From Methylomonas sp. MK1 (GTDB lineage: Bacteria; Pseudomonadota; Gammaproteobacteria; Methylococcales; Methylomonadaceae): a stretch of DNA of 64,000 nt. The position numbers and the translations under genes are program-made. Positions within the stretch are counted from its first letter, which is position 1; each line of letters starts with the position of its first letter. The notes beneath the pieces are model-generated. The model ran no database searches. It worked only from the letters and a program-made list of their open reading frames with translations, and was not told where the DNA came from. Of this stretch, positions 55,689-63,632 are shown one piece after another. The stretch covers positions 744,001 through 808,000 of the forward strand of contig NZ_AQOV01000002.1 of the NCBI RefSeq assembly GCF_000365425.1, in the 5' to 3' direction.

Positions 55689-55698
55689 GGGATTGGCA

Positions 55699-56328
55699 AT
55701 GAGCGAAATCAAAGATAAATCGGTAGAAACATTTCTGGACGAATTGGCCAGCAAGCAAGCTACCCCCGGTGGTGGTAGTGCGGCGGCGGTGATGGGCGCG
55801 CAAGCGGCCGCTTTAACCAGCATGGTCTGTAACCTGACCATCGGCAAACCCAAATACGCTGAGGTGGAAGCGAAAATGCAGGCCCTATTGACCGAAGCCG
55901 AAGCTTTACGCGCGATCTTGATTGGCATGATCAAAGCCGATGTCGATGTGTTCGACAAACTGATGGCGTGTTATGGGCTGTCTAAAAGCACCGATGAAGA
56001 AAAGGCTTTGCGCACCCAGCAAATCCAGGCCGTGTTGAAAGAGGCTACTATCGTACCTTTGGAATGCGCGAAAGCCTGTGCCAAGGCCATTGAATTGAGT
56101 CGGGTGGCTGCGGAACACGGCAATCTGGGGGTGATCAGCGATGCCGGCGTCGCGGTGATGGCGGGCTACGCTGGCTTAAAAAGCGCGGCGCTGAACGTGC
56201 AAATTAACGCCGCCAGTTTGAAAGACAGGGCGTTCGCCGAAGAACGGCTCGCCGAACTGGATACGCTTTTGCAAGCAGGCGAACTGGCCGCCGAGCAGAT
56301 TTACCGGATAGTCAGCGAAAAGCTTTAA
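55699..56328 (+). CDS. fchA: Methenyltetrahydrofolate cyclohydrolase (cyclodeaminase/cyclohydrolase family)
   Basis: A 209-residue protein of the FtcD_C/FchA family. The start is ATG 55699; the frame to 55636 overlaps cysS. The opening ETFLDELASKQATPGGGSAAAVMG is diagnostic. FchA converts methenyl-H4F to formyl-H4F in methylotrophic C1 metabolism, which fits a methanotroph. It follows cysS by 10 bases and is followed by a hairpin. Confidence 0.87.
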   Translation: MSEIKDKSVETFLDELASKQATPGGGSAAAVMGAQAAALTSMVCNLTIGKPKYAEVEAKMQALLTEAEALRAILIGMIKADVDVFDKLMACYGLSKSTDEEKALRTQQIQAVLKEATIVPLECAKACAKAIELSRVAAEHGNLGVISDAGVAVMAGYAGLKSAALNVQINAASLKDRAFAEERLAELDTLLQAGELAAEQIYRIVSEKL

Positions 56329-56500: not shown

Positions 56501-58027
56501 CTAAATCTGCTTCACGTTGATATTCAAAGTCTGAATCCGATAAGCAATCTGCCTAGGCGTCATATCCAGCAGTCTGGCAGCCTTGGCTTGCACCCAGCCG
56601 CTTTGCTCCAGCGCAGCGATCACTCGCTCCCGTTCGTCCATGTTCTCGTCGTGCAGATCGATGTGTTTGATCGATTGCGGGGTGCGGCTGATACCGATCT
56701 CGTTTTCCAGGCCGGTGCTGGCGATCACGTCGCGGTCGATAATCCCTTCCTGGCTCATAATCGCCGCCCGCTCCAGCCGATTTTCTAATTCGCGGACGTT
56801 GCCCGGCCAATCGTGTTTCATCAGAATCCGGATCGCACTTTCCTTAATTTCCAGAGGCCGGCCGCCTTGTTGGCGGGAAATCCGGTTTAAGAGAAAACTG
56901 GCCAGTTCCGGAATGTCTTCGATACGCTCACGGAGCGGCGGCATGTTAATGGGCATCACGTTCAAGCGGTAATACAAATCTTCCCGAAAATTGCCTTCCG
57001 CTACTTCCTGCTCCAGATTGCGGTTGGTAGCGGCAATGATGCGGACGTTTACTTTCAAAGTTCTGACGCCGCCGACCCGCTCGAACTCGCCTTCTTGCAG
57101 TACGCGCAGTAACTTGGCCTGAAAAGATGCGGAAATCTCGCCAATTTCGTCGAGAAACAGCGTGCCGTTGTCCGCTAGTTCAAAGCGGCCCTTGCGCTGG
57201 CCGATTGCGCCGCTGAAAGCGCCTTTTTCATGGCCGAATAACTCGGATTCCAGCAAGGTGTCGGGCAGCGCTGCGCAGTTCAACTTAAGAAACGGGCCGT
57301 TGGCGCAGGCCGAATTAAAGTGTATTGAGCTGGCGACTACTTCCTTACCGGTGCCGGATTCGCCGCGAATCAACACCGTGGTATGCCATTTGGCCACCTG
57401 GCGGATGATGTCGAACACTTTCAGCATCGGCTCGGAATGACCGATGATGTTTTCGAAGCGGTAATTTTTGACCAGGGTTTGTTTTAAGTAGTCGCGTTCG
57501 CTGGCCAGTTCGTTTTGCTTGCGCTCCATCACTCGCAACATGTTCACGCTTTGGGCGATCAGATTGGCGACCATTTCCATGAAGCGGGCGCGTTCGCCCA
57601 AAAATGTCGAGGTACAAGGCTGCGCGGCCAAAATGCCGACCACTTCGCCTTGCTCGATGGCTAATGGTGAACCGATAAACGGTAAATCCGGATTATAGAC
57701 GCCTAAGCGGCTTAAAAAACGCGGTTCGTCGGCAATGCGTTCCACGACGATAGTACTGCCTTCGTCGAGGATTGCACCCACCAGCCCTTCGCCCGGCTGG
57801 TAACGCACCGAGCGGTCTATGCCGTCGCCGTAGATCTCGCAAATGCTCATGCTATCGTCATCGACATCGCGTAGGGTGATCATGCCGAAATGCAGACCGT
57901 TACGCTTGTGCAAAATCTCCAGAATACCCTTTAGTTTGGTGCGTAAGTCATGCGTGCTATTCAGCAATTGACTGACGAGAAACAGGGTATCCAGCTCGGA
58001 TTCAACCAGTAATAAACGATCACTCAT
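56501..58027 (-). CDS. nifA: Nif-specific sigma-54 activator NifA
   Basis: A 508-residue activator. The N-terminal GAF domain spans about residues 20-165. The AAA+ domain has Walker A GESGTGKEVVASSIHF, the GAFSGA loop that contacts sigma-54, and LFLDEIGEISASFQAKLLRV. The C-terminal Fis-type HTH is GWVQAKAARLLDMTPRQIAYRI. The linker before the HTH has no Cys pair, as expected for an oxygen-insensitive NifA controlled by NifL. It overlaps nifL by 8 bases, giving a translationally coupled nifLA operon. Confidence 0.96.
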   Translation of the reverse strand: MSDRLLLVESELDTLFLVSQLLNSTHDLRTKLKGILEILHKRNGLHFGMITLRDVDDDSMSICEIYGDGIDRSVRYQPGEGLVGAILDEGSTIVVERIADEPRFLSRLGVYNPDLPFIGSPLAIEQGEVVGILAAQPCTSTFLGERARFMEMVANLIAQSVNMLRVMERKQNELASERDYLKQTLVKNYRFENIIGHSEPMLKVFDIIRQVAKWHTTVLIRGESGTGKEVVASSIHFNSACANGPFLKLNCAALPDTLLESELFGHEKGAFSGAIGQRKGRFELADNGTLFLDEIGEISASFQAKLLRVLQEGEFERVGGVRTLKVNVRIIAATNRNLEQEVAEGNFREDLYYRLNVMPINMPPLRERIEDIPELASFLLNRISRQQGGRPLEIKESAIRILMKHDWPGNVRELENRLERAAIMSQEGIIDRDVIASTGLENEIGISRTPQSIKHIDLHDENMDERERVIAALEQSGWVQAKAARLLDMTPRQIAYRIQTLNINVKQI

Positions 58028-59657
58028 GGATGTTCACCATGGCTAGGTTTTTTTGACAGGGAAAGCGGATTTTAAAACTACAACCATTTTTATACTGCGG
58101 GTCGATTTCTATCATGCCGTTATGCTGATTGACGATTTCCTTACTCATGACCAGTCCCATGCCGGCCTGGACGCCGGCGGTGCTTTGATTTGTCGTAAAA
58201 AACGGTTCGAACACCTTACTCCGTTGATTGGCGGGTATGCCGGGGCCGGAATCGGCTACCGAGACGCACACCCAATCATGCTCGATAGTCGTACTGATTT
58301 TGATGATGCGTTCCTGGCTGCTGGCCCGGTTCATCGCATTGACCGCGTTGTCGATCAATTGCTTGAATAACATGCGTAACTTGTTCTCGGCGCCGAGAAT
58401 ATTCGGCAATACCGGGTTTGGCAACCAATCCACCACGATGCCGTTTGCCAGAAATTTGGTGCTATAGAGCAGCATGACTTCGTGCAACAGCTGATTCAAA
58501 TTCACCGGTACCACCGCTGATTCCGGAATTTCCGGCACGCAACGCTGCAAGGTGGTGAGCGTTTCTTCCCCCATTTTTTGCACTTGGCCCAGCAGGTCGC
58601 GGATCGGACTGTTGTGGGCATCATTGCGTTGGGTCATGATTTGAATCGCCGCGTTGATCTGGTTTAAGGGCTGGCGAATCTGGTGCATTGCCCCCAGCAA
58701 GGTTTCGCGGATACTGCGGATATGCTCCTCTTCGGCCAGCATGGTGCGCAGAGTTTGGATTTGCAGCTTTTCCTGCTGGCGGCGCAAGGGACTGATGTCG
58801 TTAATGGTCAACAATAAATAGTCCTTGGATTGTCTGGCGAAGAAGGTGTCGGCGCAGACGTCGTTTTCGATAAACCAGTTACCGGAACAGGAAAACCAGC
58901 GCGTACCCTTGAGCCCGGAACTTTCAATCCGCACTTCGCGATTGGCGAAACCTAGTTGTCTGTCGATGTTTTCACCCCATAAATCGCCCATGTCTTGTTC
59001 CAGAGCCTCTAGGAAAAACAAGGCGGGTTCTTTCTTATCGAGTTCGCTGATCAACATTTTGTACATCTGATTGTCGAGGACGACGCGTTTGTCGCTATCC
59101 AGGACCACCATTGCTACCGGCGAGGCGTTCAACACCGATTCGATCAACTGTTTTTGGTTGCTGACCTGCTGCTCCGCGTAATGCGCTTGGGTGACATCAC
59201 GGTGCATACCGATGTAGTGGCTAATGGCGCCGCGGTCGTCGAACATGGGCGCGATGATCAGATCAGCTAAATAGCGTTGGCCCATTTTTTGCCGATTGAT
59301 CAGTTGACCGTGCCAAACCTGTTTACGGGAAATGGTGTGCCATAAATCGTAATAGATTTGCCTGGGAGTGGACTTGTCGGATAGTTCGGATTCGTTCTTA
59401 CCAAGAATTTCAGCGGCGTTGTAGCCAGTTACATCGGTGAAGGCTTGGTTGATATAAAGGATGTTGGCTTTTTTATCGGTAATTGAAATGGCGACCGGTG
59501 CCTGCTCCACAGCCTTAACAAATAAGGAAAACGGCAGGGTTTTAGAGGCTTTACCGCCTTTGAGCGATTGCCCGAGAGCATTTAGGGCAGGCGATAGCAT
59601 ATCGGCCGTATCAATCTCAATCTGGCCTTGCAGGTAGTCAGGGGTGGATTTGGTCAT
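58020..59657 (-). CDS. nifL: NifA-antagonist flavoprotein NifL
   Basis: A 545-residue protein starting at ATG 59657; the longer frame to 59723 would overlap the promoter. PAS1, a probable FAD-binding sensor, begins VKAVEQAPVAISITDKKANI; a second PAS follows near 165. The histidine-kinase-like region has MHQIRQPLNQINAAIQI and a GHKL domain with ADSGPGIPANQRSKVFEPFF. NifL senses oxygen and nitrogen status and inhibits NifA by direct binding. It is known only from gammaproteobacteria such as Azotobacter, Klebsiella and methanotrophs. Confidence 0.94.
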   Translation of the reverse strand: MTKSTPDYLQGQIEIDTADMLSPALNALGQSLKGGKASKTLPFSLFVKAVEQAPVAISITDKKANILYINQAFTDVTGYNAAEILGKNESELSDKSTPRQIYYDLWHTISRKQVWHGQLINRQKMGQRYLADLIIAPMFDDRGAISHYIGMHRDVTQAHYAEQQVSNQKQLIESVLNASPVAMVVLDSDKRVVLDNQMYKMLISELDKKEPALFFLEALEQDMGDLWGENIDRQLGFANREVRIESSGLKGTRWFSCSGNWFIENDVCADTFFARQSKDYLLLTINDISPLRRQQEKLQIQTLRTMLAEEEHIRSIRETLLGAMHQIRQPLNQINAAIQIMTQRNDAHNSPIRDLLGQVQKMGEETLTTLQRCVPEIPESAVVPVNLNQLLHEVMLLYSTKFLANGIVVDWLPNPVLPNILGAENKLRMLFKQLIDNAVNAMNRASSQERIIKISTTIEHDWVCVSVADSGPGIPANQRSKVFEPFFTTNQSTAGVQAGMGLVMSKEIVNQHNGMIEIDPQYKNGCSFKIRFPCQKNLAMVNIHE

Positions 59658-59706
59658 GGCAAATGGTTCTCGCGTGTTTTTTCTAGGCTTAAGTTGGAAA
59701 ACTACA

Positions 59707-59722
59707 TGCAATTTGAGAGCCA
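59707..59722 (-). promoter_or_regulatory. Sigma-54 promoter of nifLA
   Basis: On the minus strand TGGCTC-TCAAA-TTGCA matches the -24/-12 consensus with GG and GC correctly spaced. Transcription should start near 59696, giving a leader of about 39 bases to nifL. Confidence 0.8.
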
Positions 59723-59764
59723 AATGCGTTTCGGCTTAGCTGCTGTTGGAAAATCCAGGCTATT

Positions 59765-59780
59765 TGTATGGTTTACGACA
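59765..59780. promoter_or_regulatory. NifA upstream activator site 1 (TGT-N10-ACA)
   Basis: TGT at 59765-59767 and ACA at 59778-59780 are separated by exactly 10 bases. Its centre is about 77 bases from the nifL start and about 140 bases from the rnfA start point, within the usual range. Confidence 0.75.
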
Positions 59781-59805
59781 AATTTTAGCGGACTTGTTTC
59801 AGCTC

Positions 59806-59821
59806 TGTGTTTTTTAGGACA
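59806..59821. promoter_or_regulatory. NifA upstream activator site 2 (TGT-N10-ACA)
   Basis: TGT at 59806-59808 and ACA at 59819-59821, 10 bases apart, within a longer inverted repeat CTCTGT...ACAGAG. It lies about 100 bases upstream of the rnfA start point. Confidence 0.8.
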
Positions 59822-59886
59822 GAGATGTTGGCGCTAAATCTCCTGGCTTTGCACTAAATCGGGGAGTTGTGGGCTTTTCGCAGCAT

Positions 59887-59902
59887 TGGCATAAATGATG
59901 CT
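59887..59902 (+). promoter_or_regulatory. Sigma-54 promoter of rnfABCDG
   Basis: TGGCAT-AAATG-ATGCT carries both GG and GC at correct spacing. Transcription should start near 59913, 20 bases before the rnfA ATG. Confidence 0.78.
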
Positions 59903-59932
59903 GTCTTGTTACAAAACACCGGGTCTAAAACG

Positions 59933-60514
59933 ATGAGCGAATACTTACTACTGATATTGGGTACGGCCTTGGTCAACAATGTCGTGTTGGTCAAGTTTTT
60001 AGGTTTATGCCCGTTCATGGGGGTTTCCAACAAGCTGGATACCGCATTGGGCATGGGTTTGGCGACCACGTTTGTCTTGACCCTGGCTTCTGCGGCCAGT
60101 TGGGTGTTGGAACATCGCTTATTGATACCGTTCGATATCGGTTTTTTGCGAGTGCTGGGTTTTATTCTGGTGATCGCCGCAGTCGTGCAGTTTACCGAGA
60201 TGGTGATACACAAAACCAGTCCGGTCATGTACCAGGTTTTAGGGATTTTTTTACCGCTGATTACGACTAATTGCGCGGTTTTGGGTGTGGCCCTGCTTAA
60301 CATCCAAGAGAAATACAATTTCGTGCAAAGCCTGCTGTTCGGCTTTGGTTCGGCAATGGGTTTTACCCTGGTGATGGTGCTCTTCGCCGGTCTACGTGAA
60401 CGCTTAGCGCTCATGGCAGTGCCGGCGCTTTTTTCCGGCACCCCCATCGCATTTATCACCGCCGGCATACTGTCGCTGGCGTTTATGGGATTCGCGGGGC
60501 TTTACAGCAAATAA
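59933..60514 (+). CDS. rnfA: Rnf electron-transport complex subunit A
   Basis: A 193-residue integral membrane subunit with six hydrophobic segments, the same length as E. coli RsxA. The start is ATG 59933; the upstream frame to 59867 would run through the promoter. [19 protein letters not shown] and [15 protein letters not shown] are conserved, each with the Cys of the membrane iron centre. Rnf moves electrons between NADH and ferredoxin or flavodoxin, here probably to nitrogenase. First gene of the NifA-controlled operon. Confidence 0.96.
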
Positions 60515-60524
60515 GAGGCACATC

Positions 60525-61058
60525 ATGTACGTTTTATCTGCCATTGTTATTTTGACATCGCTAGGATTGTTGCTGGGCGTGGCTTTGGGGATTGCCGCCA
60601 AATATCTAAAGGTGGAATCGGACCCTTTAATAGAAACCATCGAGGCCTTAATGCCCGGTTCGCAATGCGGGCAGTGCGGCTTTCCCGGCTGCCGACCAGC
60701 TGCGGAAGCTCTGGTATCGGGCGCTGCACCGGTGACATTGTGTCCGCCAGGCGGCACATCTCTCGTCGAACAGCTCGCCAAATTACTAGGCGTCGATGTC
60801 GATTTAAGCCAAACGCAAGATCAAGAAGCAATGGTGGCTAGGGTTAGCGAAGAAACCTGCACCGGCTGTACCCGCTGCTTCAAGGTTTGTCCTACCGACG
60901 CCATCGTCGGCGCACCAAAACAGATCCACGCCGTAGTAGCGGATGCCTGCATCGGTTGCAAAAAATGCGTGGAAGTATGCCCTACCGAATGTCTGCAAAT
61001 GCACCCTGTTGAAGTGACCTTGCGCAACTGGCGCTGGCCGAAACCGCTGGCCGCCTGA
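60525..61058 (+). CDS. rnfB: Rnf complex subunit B, iron-sulfur protein
   Basis: A 177-residue protein. An N-terminal membrane anchor is followed by the four-Cys Fis-type cluster motif GSQCGQCGFPGCRPAAEAL and two 4Fe-4S ferredoxin motifs (CTGCTRCFKVCPTDA and CIGCKKCVEVCPTE). It should receive or pass electrons at the cytoplasmic face. It starts 10 bases after rnfA. Confidence 0.96.
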   Translation: MYVLSAIVILTSLGLLLGVALGIAAKYLKVESDPLIETIEALMPGSQCGQCGFPGCRPAAEALVSGAAPVTLCPPGGTSLVEQLAKLLGVDVDLSQTQDQEAMVARVSEETCTGCTRCFKVCPTDAIVGAPKQIHAVVADACIGCKKCVEVCPTECLQMHPVEVTLRNWRWPKPLAA

Positions 61059-61071
61059 GACGGAGACACCT

Positions 61072-62574
61072 ATGTTCGCCTTGTTCGAGAATCCCCGCTT
61101 GCGCGGCGGCATCCACGCTGAAGAGCACAAAGCCGAAACCTCTCCGCTCAGCATTGTTACCGATTTTCCATTGCCTAAGAAGTTGTACATTCCGGTGCAA
61201 CAGCATGTCGGCAAGCCTGCCGAGCCCGTAGTTAAAGTCGGCGAAAAAGTTTTGAAGGGACAATTGCTGGCATATAGCCAAGGCACCATTTCGGCGCCTG
61301 TTCATGCACCAACATCGGGCGTTATCGCCGATGTGAAGGATTTTCCGGCCCCGCATCCGTCCGCCTTGCCGATTCGTACCGTAGTGATTGAAAGCGACGG
61401 GAAAGAACAATGGGCCGAATTAGTGGTGCCGGAAGATCCGTTTCAACTAGAGCCGGAAGAAATTTGTCAACGCGTCGGCGCCGCCGGTGTGGTGGGTTTG
61501 GGAGGTGCGGTATTCCCGTCGGCGGTCAAACTAAGTTTGGGCCGCAAAAACAAGATTCACACCCTTTTGATCAACGCCGGCGAATGCGAGCCTTATCTGA
61601 CTTGCGATGACCGCTTGATGCAGGAGCGCGCCGAACAAATCGTTGCCGGTATCAGGTTAATGTTACGCGGTATGGATGCTCCCAAGGCCTTGGTAGGTAT
61701 CGAAGATAATAAGCCCGAGGCTTTTGCGGCCATGCAGCTGGCCAGCCGGGATTTTGCCAATATCGTCGTGGCACAAGTGCCGACTCGCTACCCGATGGGC
61801 TGGGATCGGCAAATGTTGCGCTACTTAACCGGCCAGGAAATTCCTGCCGATGGCCGGGCTACCGACATCGGCGTGGTGGTGCATAACGTCGCCACCGCCT
61901 TTGCTGTCTATCAAGCGATATGTCTGGGTCAGCCTTTGATTAGCCGAGTAGTCACCGTATCCGGCGCCGCCGTCGCCAAACCCAGAAATGTGGAAGTGCC
62001 GATCGGCACCTTGATGTCGGAAGTGCTGGCATTTTGCGGTTTGGAAAAATCGAAAATGGCCCGCTTGGTGATGGGCGGACCGATGATGGGCGACGCGCTG
62101 CCGCTGGCCGAAGTGCCGGTCGTCAAAGCCTGCAATGGCATTTTGGCCTTGTCCGCTGCCGATATTGACGAACCGCCGGTACAGCCCTGTATTCGTTGCT
62201 CCAGTTGCGTGACTGCTTGTCCGGTAGGCTTGTTGCCCTTGGAGATGGCCAGCCGCATCAAAGCCAATCAATTAGACTCGGCGGTTGATTTGGGCCTAAA
62301 AGACTGCATCAGTTGCGGCAGTTGTTCTTATGTCTGCCCGTCGAATATACCCTTGGTGCATTACTTTAAATTCGCTTCCGGCGAGTTAGTGAAGCGGCAA
62401 CAAGCCGAGCACAAGGCTGAACAAACCAAGCGTTTAGTCGAGGATAGAAATAATCGGATGGAACGGGCTAGGTTGGAAGCTGAAGCGGAAGCCCTGCGCG
62501 CTCAGGAAGCCAGAGCCGCCCGTCTGGCTGCCGCACAACAGGCGCAAGCAGCGCCAGCAGAGGAAACCGTATGA
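61072..62574 (+). CDS. rnfC: Rnf complex subunit C, NADH-binding
   Basis: A 500-residue protein with an N-terminal barrel-sandwich domain, an NADH/FMN-binding domain (GAAGVVGLGGAVFPSAVKL) and two ferredoxin clusters, CIRCSSCVTACPVG and CISCGSCSYVCPSN. A short Ala/Glu-rich helical tail closes it; E. coli RsxC has a much longer one. It overlaps rnfD by 4 bases (ATGA). Confidence 0.95.
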   Translation: MFALFENPRLRGGIHAEEHKAETSPLSIVTDFPLPKKLYIPVQQHVGKPAEPVVKVGEKVLKGQLLAYSQGTISAPVHAPTSGVIADVKDFPAPHPSALPIRTVVIESDGKEQWAELVVPEDPFQLEPEEICQRVGAAGVVGLGGAVFPSAVKLSLGRKNKIHTLLINAGECEPYLTCDDRLMQERAEQIVAGIRLMLRGMDAPKALVGIEDNKPEAFAAMQLASRDFANIVVAQVPTRYPMGWDRQMLRYLTGQEIPADGRATDIGVVVHNVATAFAVYQAICLGQPLISRVVTVSGAAVAKPRNVEVPIGTLMSEVLAFCGLEKSKMARLVMGGPMMGDALPLAEVPVVKACNGILALSAADIDEPPVQPCIRCSSCVTACPVGLLPLEMASRIKANQLDSAVDLGLKDCISCGSCSYVCPSNIPLVHYFKFASGELVKRQQAEHKAEQTKRLVEDRNNRMERARLEAEAEALRAQEARAARLAAAQQAQAAPAEETV

Positions 62575-63632
62575 GTAATAAACCGATTAGCGGGCCTCAC
62601 GTTGCGGCTACCCGCCGCGTCGATCAAATCATGCGCTTGGTCATTATTGCCCTGGCGCCGGCCACGGCCTGCGGTGTGTTGTTGTTCGGCTGGCCAGCGC
62701 TGTATTTGCTGGCGGTAACTGTATTGTCGGCGATGGCTTTTGAAGGTTTGTGTTTGAAGATGAAAGGCGTGGCGGCGATGCCTTATCTGCGCGACGGCTC
62801 GGCGATAGTCACCGGTTTGCTGGTGGCAATGACCTTGCCGCCTTGGGCGCCTTGGTGGATAGGCGTAGTCGGTTCGGCGTTGGCGATTGTATTGGGCAAG
62901 CACGTCTACGGCGGCTTGGGGCAAAACCTGTTCAATCCGGCCATGCTGGCCAGGGTGGCTTTGCTGATTTCCTTTCCTATCGAGATGACTACCTGGGCCA
63001 ACGTATCGCCTCTGTTCACCGGGCCCGGCGTGATCGATAGCTTGGCAATAACCTTTGGCGGTTTGGAAAATCCCGATGCGGTGACCGGCGCCACGACGTT
63101 GGGCTGGGTCAAGACCGAGTTTTCGCAAAACCGGCTGTTGCCCGGCAGTTTGATCGAGTATTCTGGATTTTTAGCGTTTCTTGGTTGGGAGCGCGGTAGT
63201 CTGGGGGAAACCTCTTCGTTATTGTTGTTGGCCGGCGGTATCTGGTTGATGCGGCAGGGTGTCATCAAATGGCACATTCCCGTCTCGCTGCTATTCAGTA
63301 TTTTCCTGCTGTCGACGGTTTTTCATACCTGGGATAGTCAGCACTATATGGGGCCGTGGGTACATCTGAATTCCGGTGCGGTAATGCTGGTGGCGTTTTT
63401 TATCGCGACGGACTACGTCACTTCGCCTAACACACCTTTAGGCCAAGTGATTTTCGGCGCCGGCTGCGGTTTATTGATTTTCGTGATCCGTTCTTGGGGC
63501 GGTTATCCGGAAGGCACCGGTTTTGCGATTTTATTGATGAACGCAGTCACTCCTCTCATCGATCATTACATTCGTCCGAGAATTTATGGCCGCTACCGTA
63601 ACGGCAAGCCGCTCGATATTTCCAATTCCTGA
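62571..63632 (+). CDS. rnfD: Rnf complex subunit D
   Basis: A 353-residue polytopic subunit with covalent FMN. The flavin Thr lies in DAVTGATTLGW near residue 178. About nine membrane segments are visible, as usual for the family, with YGGLGQNLFNPAML conserved. The ATG overlaps the rnfC stop. Confidence 0.95.
   Translation: MSNKPISGPHVAATRRVDQIMRLVIIALAPATACGVLLFGWPALYLLAVTVLSAMAFEGLCLKMKGVAAMPYLRDGSAIVTGLLVAMTLPPWAPWWIGVVGSALAIVLGKHVYGGLGQNLFNPAMLARVALLISFPIEMTTWANVSPLFTGPGVIDSLAITFGGLENPDAVTGATTLGWVKTEFSQNRLLPGSLIEYSGFLAFLGWERGSLGETSSLLLLAGGIWLMRQGVIKWHIPVSLLFSIFLLSTVFHTWDSQHYMGPWVHLNSGAVMLVAFFIATDYVTSPNTPLGQVIFGAGCGLLIFVIRSWGGYPEGTGFAILLMNAVTPLIDHYIRPRIYGRYRNGKPLDISNS

Follow-up and report, generated by a model that had tools for sequence, protein, structure and literature searches.

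In the 64,000-nucleotide stretch of Methylomonas sp. MK1 analysed here (contig NZ_AQOV01000002.1, positions 744,001 to 808,000, hereafter the window), the divergent genes nifL (start codon at 59657, minus strand) and rnfA (start codon at 59933, plus strand) are separated by a gap of 275 bp that would act as a bidirectional sigma-54 control region. We consider it likely that the rnf operon is driven by NifA, and that nifLA is started by NtrC or by background expression and then boosted by NifA. According to this model, NifA bound at two upstream activating sequences (UAS1 and UAS2) would loop to sigma-54 polymerase poised at the rnfA box, with the pair lying on a helix face fixed with respect to this box. 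From the same sites, NifA would also reach the opposite nifL box and boost nifLA in a positive feedback, through a contact that would be loosely constrained. The initial expression of nifLA would need another input: in many relatives the starter is probably phosphorylated NtrC on TGCAC-type sites just beyond UAS2, and in Methylomonas the start could come via a weaker NtrC-like site at 59850-59866 or from low background expression. The genes and elements involved are the following.

56501..58027, minus strand: nifA (TIGR01817, 645.8 bits against a cut-off of 528.85)
58020..59657, minus strand: nifL (TIGR02938, 640.5 bits against a cut-off of 242.45), overlapping nifA by 8 bp
59707..59722, minus strand: -24/-12 box facing nifL, TGGCTCTCAAATTGCA, 9 of 16 positions invariant in 23 aligned gaps
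59765..59780, no strand assigned: UAS1, NifA-type (TGT-N10-ACA), TGTATGGTTTACGACA, 10 of 16 positions invariant in the same gaps
59806..59821, no strand assigned: UAS2, NifA-type (TGT-N10-ACA), TGTGTTTTTTAGGACA, 8 of 16 positions invariant
59887..59902, plus strand: -24/-12 box facing rnfA, TGGCATAAATGATGCT, 10 of 16 positions invariant
59933..60514, plus strand: rnfA, first gene of the rnf operon (TIGR01943, 281.5 bits against a cut-off of 229.3)

The two opposed sigma-54 boxes and the two TGT-N10-ACA sites had been claimed in an earlier reading of the letters alone (the sequence-only reading), and all four are present at the positions listed. UAS2 begins 41 bp after UAS1, and the GG and GC core positions of both boxes (GG-N10-GC) are invariant in the 23 aligned gaps. 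Sigma-54 transcription starts lie 12 bases past the GC of the -12 element, and this rule would place the nifL start at about 59696 (minus strand) and the rnfA start at about 59913 (plus strand), giving leaders of about 39 and 20 nt, respectively. The centres of UAS1 and UAS2 would then lie at about -76 and -117 from the nifL start, and the two UAS centres at about -99 and -140 from the rnfA start. The position of UAS1 on the nifL side would thus be slightly nearer than the published 100 bp (PMC2820453). The nifH gene of the same genome served as a positive control: its box, TGGCACGGCCATTGCT, has a UAS, TGTTGGTTAGATAACA, 97 bp upstream, and this is one of only two box-UAS combinations that a strict search returned in its 60-kb stretch. 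A site for the integration host factor (IHF) between UAS and box is common in NifA/sigma-54 promoters, though not universal. In our set, IHF-like matches of at least 8 of 9 positions were not clearly enriched, being present in 8/124 spacers on the nifL side (12% in shuffled spacers) and 12/124 on the rnfA side (7% in shuffled spacers), and the best matches in the window reach 6 and 7 of 9 on the nifL and rnfA sides. Rfam elements were not found in 59500-60100 up to an E value of 1.

The frequency of the motif itself would be compatible with a chance resemblance, i.e. with boxes and repeats that have no regulatory role, as TGT-N10-ACA does not exceed expectation either in the window (8 occurrences against 11.6 expected, not enriched) or in the 5.23-Mb genome (611 against 650 for a backward control, about one per 8,600 bases). 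Boxes of at least 12 bits, scored with a weight matrix built from the general consensus, number 18 in the window on both strands. The argument of the sequence-only reading that two sites in 275 bp are unlikely by chance reached a fair conclusion (about 0.03 sites expected, two being unusual at a Poisson estimate of about 5e-4), although the base rate of one per 4096 that it used is wrong, as seen from the genome rate. The decisive test for the reality of the sites is conservation. Over 23 aligned gaps from Methylomonas and near genera (selected from the 30 loci L009-L038, excluding six with long gaps and one duplicate), 37 of 64 positions are invariant within the four elements against 9 of 211 elsewhere, so that invariant element positions stand inside a diverged gap. 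Furthermore, among the 102 family loci examined, rnfA is divergent and next to nifL in 95, the remaining seven being found at contig edges (three) or in the genus g22 (four). The comparison of the gap in relatives, which the sequence-only reading had proposed as a check, showed that 93 of these 95 loci keep both boxes, each scoring at least 10 bits, and have one UAS or more between them (at least two UAS in 90). Dinucleotide shuffles, 20 per locus, gave no match to this architecture at the same threshold, and a laxer setting (8-bit boxes, one UAS) gave one match in 1,900 shuffles. Chance resemblance is therefore extremely improbable; because of their arrangement and conservation, and not because of hexamer frequency, the sites can be regarded as credible. 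Such conservation is strong support for two points expected from the sequence-only reading, that rnf is under NifA/sigma-54 control and that nifL has a sigma-54 promoter: in our judgement, as distinct from a computed value, it is very likely that NifA controls rnf, and just as likely that the nifL promoter is sigma-54-dependent.

The family loci came from a search of 201 genomes, 106 of which contained NifL; 102 loci were used, four genomes whose matches were partial or at a contig end (G034, G106, G182, G197) being left out. Searching all 237 family genomes added 23 places in 21 genomes, of which 20 were taken, omitting G577 and the second places of G569 and G570, and a class-level search found NifL in 21 of 369 genomes; named loci were drawn from the best 80 of 404 matches, and L111, which is the genome of L042, was omitted. 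Among the resulting 221 loci, one was too short (L130), 28 were without an adjacent rnfA match (in 10 of these, the upstream sequence was shorter than 900 bp), and 192 had rnfA adjacent, representing 158 distinct gaps. An exact UAS pair together with the rnfA box was found in 125 of the 158, all but one of these (124) also having a nifL box of at least 8 bits, and each of the remaining 33 gaps holds at least one exact UAS. The two sites of the pair are 39-42 bp apart in 116/125 cases and 18 bp apart in 9/125. The shorter spacing, equivalent to a loss of about two helical turns, is seen in the genus g13 (L030-L035, L039-L041). In 14 of the 33 pairless gaps, for example those of Sideroxydans and Gallionellaceae, an exact UAS and the rnfA box are separated by 104-107 bp, and the corresponding distance for UAS1 of the window is 106 bp. 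Additional TGT-N10-ACA matches outside the conserved pair, present in L012 and several other loci, probably occur by chance. In two family loci from incomplete genomes, rnfA was not found within 1.9-2.0 kb; one of them (L159) has a box and the UAS pair, and the other (L158) is without a nifL box within 300 bp. In one further locus (L047, genome G049), about 1.3 kb is inserted between nifL and the presumed ancestral sigma-54 promoter. The insert carries, in the same direction as nifL, a frame of about 327 codons; by eye, this frame resembles a PAS-plus-phosphatase regulator, and it could be a new first gene of the nifLA operon.

The question of which promoter the UAS pair serves was approached through changes in spacing, compared on a tree of rnfA DNA holding 124 of the 125 pair loci (one had too little rnfA). 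Separate pairs of relatives whose spacing differed by at least 4 bp were used, in order to reduce the effect of shared ancestry. The spacing from UAS2 to the rnfA box clusters around 54, 65, 76 bp and longer values, with 109/125 loci at 60-80 bp, and its changes follow helical steps (21 pairs, V 0.62 at 11 bp, p 2.6e-5; when the spacing was limited to 150 bp, 20 pairs, V 0.66 at 11 bp, p 1.3e-5, jitter p 0.0005). The control distance between the rnfA box and its ATG gave V -0.22 (22 pairs). For the spacing between UAS1 and the nifL box, which ranges from 32 to 367 bp, helical steps were not detected over 40 pairs (V 0.07, p 0.26). Because the spacing changes are helical on the rnfA side and not clearly so on the nifL side, the enhancer pair looks positioned for, and phase-locked to, rnfA, and its action on nifL looks looser. 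A first periodicity test made without phylogeny (UAS2-rnfA R 0.85, p 0.0002; UAS1-nifL R 0.31, p 0.017) was dropped, since its control, the rnfA box-ATG distance, was also significant (R 0.37, p 0.0074).

With regard to the input that would start nifLA, sequences resembling NtrC sites are found between UAS2 and the rnfA box in many relatives. The palindrome TGCAC-N7-GTGCA is matched there at 8 or more of 10 positions in 36/124 spacers and at 9 or more in 16/124, against 4% and 0% of shuffles, and on the nifL side of the UAS pair the palindrome showed no excess over shuffles. Perfect palindromes were found in L207 (Ectothiorhodospira haloalkaliphila), L114, L053 and L082. The half-site YGCAC occurs 6-10 bp after UAS2 in 61/124 loci (1.0 expected) and 26-32 bp after it in 36/124 (1.6 expected), and 20 loci have it at both positions, which results in tandem half-sites about 21 bp apart. 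The Klebsiella nifLA promoter, a sigma-54 promoter activated by NtrC, has tandem NtrC sites about 21 bp apart, which the tandem half-sites of the relatives resemble, and is not known to have a shared NifA enhancer pair. Within the genus of the window, one or both NtrC-like half-sites are present in 23 of 27 distinct gaps, mostly at the second position. Two candidates were recognized in the window itself.

59830..59839, plus strand: possible degenerate first NtrC-type half-site, very weak, GGCGCTAAAT, at the position of the relatives' NtrC-type sites
59850..59866, plus strand: NtrC-like site, TGCACTAAATCGGGGAG, 7 of 10 symmetric positions, with YGCAC there in 21 of 27 distinct genus gaps

In the 23 aligned gaps the former is not conserved (0/10 invariant positions, mean majority 0.57 against a background of 0.56), and the first ten bases of the latter have a mean majority of 0.81 against 0.56 and no invariant position. 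Use of the NtrC-type motif in this genome is suggested because NtrC (TIGR01818, 732.7 bits against a cut-off of 558.6) and RpoN (DNA-binding domain at 231.1 bits, above cut-off) are both encoded and glnK has a 9/10 NtrC-type site, TGCACTGCTTTGGTGCG, ahead of a sigma-54 box. A perfect palindrome of this type occurs once in the genome (C2:1162321); it falls within a reading frame and was left out of the supporting evidence. By our judgement, NtrC input to nifLA is likely in part of the family; for this strain we are less sure, and would place it slightly short of an even chance. The contrast that the sequence-only reading had drawn with the NtrC-dependent Klebsiella nifLA (PMC8443478) fails as stated, with NtrC-type sites in the gaps of many relatives and NtrC encoded in the genome. 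It is also countered by Pseudomonas stutzeri, where a dependence of nifLA on NtrC (PMC8443478) as well as on NifA (PMC2820453) has been reported.

Loci in which nifL is not accompanied by rnfA offer a view of what each gene would need. In the four genomes of g22, rnfA is located elsewhere on the nifL-bearing contig. There, rnfA kept its box in 4/4, with the exact UAS pair in 2/4 and one exact UAS in 2/4; YGCAC after UAS2 was not seen by eye, and L243 has GTGCA between the UAS positions. The g22 nifL genes have a box and a nearby exact UAS in 4/4 (in L105 at the place equivalent to UAS2), and in 3/4 they also have tandem GTGCR half-sites 19-20 bp apart. What each gene kept after this split suggests an assignment of the NtrC-type sites to nifL and a role of the NifA sites for both genes. 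Outside the family, nifL without a neighbouring rnfA and with at least 900 bp of upstream sequence could be compared in 11 distinct loci (L115 and L209 being alike). Seven of them (L112, L117, L128, L129, L198, L204, L205) have no exact UAS in the approximately 900 bp upstream, and among these seven a nifL-facing box of at least 10 bits is found only in L112, L128, L198 and L204. In L197 (Methylocaldum) and L230 (Zoogloea), a nifL box is accompanied by an exact UAS at a distance of about 70-90 bp; L113 lacks a box but has a UAS, and L115 and L209 have a distant UAS pair. In these last two, the pair, 39 bp apart, stands behind a strong sigma-54 box at about 340-880 bases upstream of nifL; in the interval from nifL to the pair there is a perfect NtrC-type palindrome, TGCACCCTATTGGTGCA. 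Methylococcus- and Methylocaldum-type methanotrophs without co-located rnf and nifLA agree with the published clade G3 (PMC6490700).

On the autoregulation of nifL, then, these observations point both ways. One possibility is that the UAS pair serves rnf only, so that nifLA would be NtrC-driven or nearly constitutive and the adjacent UAS would be bystanders. The phase-locking to rnfA, but not clearly to nifL, and the seven loci without an exact UAS fit such a view, as does the reported suppression of nifLA nitrogen control when the P. stutzeri rnf-nifLA region was swapped for that of Azotobacter vinelandii (PMC8219145). However, nifL of g22 kept an exact UAS in every genome after the departure of rnfA, one is also present in L197 and L230, and NifA dependence has been reported for P. 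stutzeri nifLA (PMC2820453). We consider this view quite unlikely. The opposite possibility is full autoregulation, proposed in the sequence-only reading, with NifA alone driving both nifLA and rnf via the shared pair and NtrC uninvolved in Methylomonas. It would be consistent with the UAS positions relative to the presumed nifL start, with the well-conserved nifL box, with the UAS of g22, L197 and L230, with the weakness of the Methylomonas NtrC-like site, and with the nifA autoactivation proposed for Methylosinus 3S-1 (PMC12727197). Against it stand the 40 pairs without clear helical constraint on the nifL side, where spacing extends up to 367 bp, and the NtrC-like half-sites in most gaps of the genus; in addition, autoactivation alone would have no start from zero NifA. 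We regard full autoregulation as unlikely, and of the earlier claim a weaker form is kept: nifLA autoregulation is plausible, given box and UAS without rnfA in L197 and L230, yet less well founded than NifA control of rnf, with no clear helical constraint on the nifL side and no exact UAS in seven of the 11 loci. Our preferred reading remains a NifA-driven rnf and a nifLA started by another input, in which a NifA boost of nifLA is, by our judgement, likely. A further elaboration, which we put forward as doubtful, is that nifLA borrows an enhancer owned by rnf: the NifA sites would be phased to the rnfA box only, and the NtrC sites of nifLA would lie inside the rnf loop, so that NtrC would start nifLA and might tune or hinder the rnf loop, giving an order of regulator first and electron supply second.

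Several points weigh against the combined NifA and NtrC model. The UAS2-rnfA signal weakens on inclusion of 3-bp changes (23 pairs, V 0.52, p 0.00023) or of single-UAS loci (30 pairs, V 0.39, p 0.0013 at 11 bp). On the nifL side, the subset whose spacing does not exceed 130 bp (p 0.049 at 11.2 bp) and the subset with boxes of at least 12 bits (jitter p 0.038-0.059 at 12.1 bp) are marginal, and these two leave room for some helical constraint there as well. The phase test itself depends on one rnfA tree, greedily chosen pairs, and box positions from the consensus-based weight matrix. The YGCAC counts are uncorrected for shared ancestry and were compared with simple base shuffles, and the half-site is missing at either position in 11/13 loci of g24, 9/12 of g12 and 3/3 of g6. 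The site at 59850-59866, matching 7/10, is weak and not significant alone (P 0.16 in the shuffled spacer). The g22 split is probably one event, in four genomes of one genus. In A. vinelandii, nif expression is reported to need no NtrC (PMC8443478) despite the co-location of rnf1 and nifLA (PMC6490700). Finally, the case for this organism is built on sequence: binding, looping, expression and the direction of control are deduced from the elements, their conservation, the spacing pattern and the NtrC and RpoN genes, which were directly observed.

The layout is already known from other nitrogen fixers, and here it is extended to the family around Methylomonas. The divergent rnf-nifLA arrangement is described as widespread (PMC6490700). 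In P. stutzeri A1501, nifL adjoins rnfA as in the window, and NifA and RpoN sites are described ahead of each gene, with the operons falling in nifA and rpoN mutants, data not shown in the source (PMC2820453). It differs in the organism and the exact site geometry, and phasing on the rnfA side is not described in the available part of that source. A P. stutzeri ntrC mutant showed a fall of nifL, nifA and rnf, and a putative NtrC site was noted in the nifA promoter region (PMC8443478). Azoarcus olearius BH72, a different organism, resembles the window in the tandem NifA sites predicted upstream of both rnfA1 and nifL, and its rnf1 is positively regulated by NifA (PMC3916325). In A. vinelandii rnf1 and nifLA are co-located and rnf1 is NifA-regulated (PMC6490700, PMC8219145, PMC8443478), but the dispensable NtrC, and the suppression of nifLA nitrogen control by its region in P. 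stutzeri (PMC8219145), set it apart from the explanation preferred here. Klebsiella, unlike the window, has no adjacent rnf operon (clade G1 in PMC6490700). What the present analysis adds is the phase-locking toward rnfA and the placement of NtrC-type sites in the spacer from UAS2 to the rnfA box; a description of either was not found in the open-licence literature searched, as far as its texts were available.

The nifA product has GAF, AAA+ sigma-54 interaction and Fis-type helix-turn-helix domains (PF01590, PF00158, PF02954), and the closest named matches of NifL, among the best 80 of 404, are Methylomonas sp. WSC-7 (99% identity) and M. methanica R-45363 (98%). The rnf operon continues downstream of rnfA.

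60525..63632, plus strand: rnfB, rnfC and rnfD (TIGR01944, TIGR01945 and TIGR01946, above cut-off)
from 63641, plus strand: rnfG, extending beyond the window end and found in the longer locus L142

Past the window end, downstream of the rnf genes, another sigma-54 activator gene is located at L142:7876-9192 (C2:810876-812192); its top NCBIfam match is NifA at 317.7 bits, far under the cut-off of 528.85. The enhancer-binding proteins L003, L006 and L007 received no family at the strict profile threshold, NtrC being located at another gene. Beside nifA, a methenyltetrahydrofolate cyclohydrolase gene, FchA (NF045657, 301.1 bits against a cut-off of 275), lies at 55690-56328 on the plus strand, and the frame preceding it resembles a cysteinyl-tRNA synthetase when read by eye.

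The separate spacing changes on the tree represent natural-variation evidence that a NifA enhancer depends on helix face, and with the spacing approach the promoter served by an enhancer can be recognized among two divergent ones. The named members of the family (Methylomonas, Methylobacter, Methylotuvimicrobium and others, among the best 80 of 404 matches) are methanotrophs. For these organisms, whether nifLA is autoregulated or mainly started by NtrC would determine the route by which ammonium status acts on methane-driven nitrogen fixation, and which targets would be chosen for its engineering.

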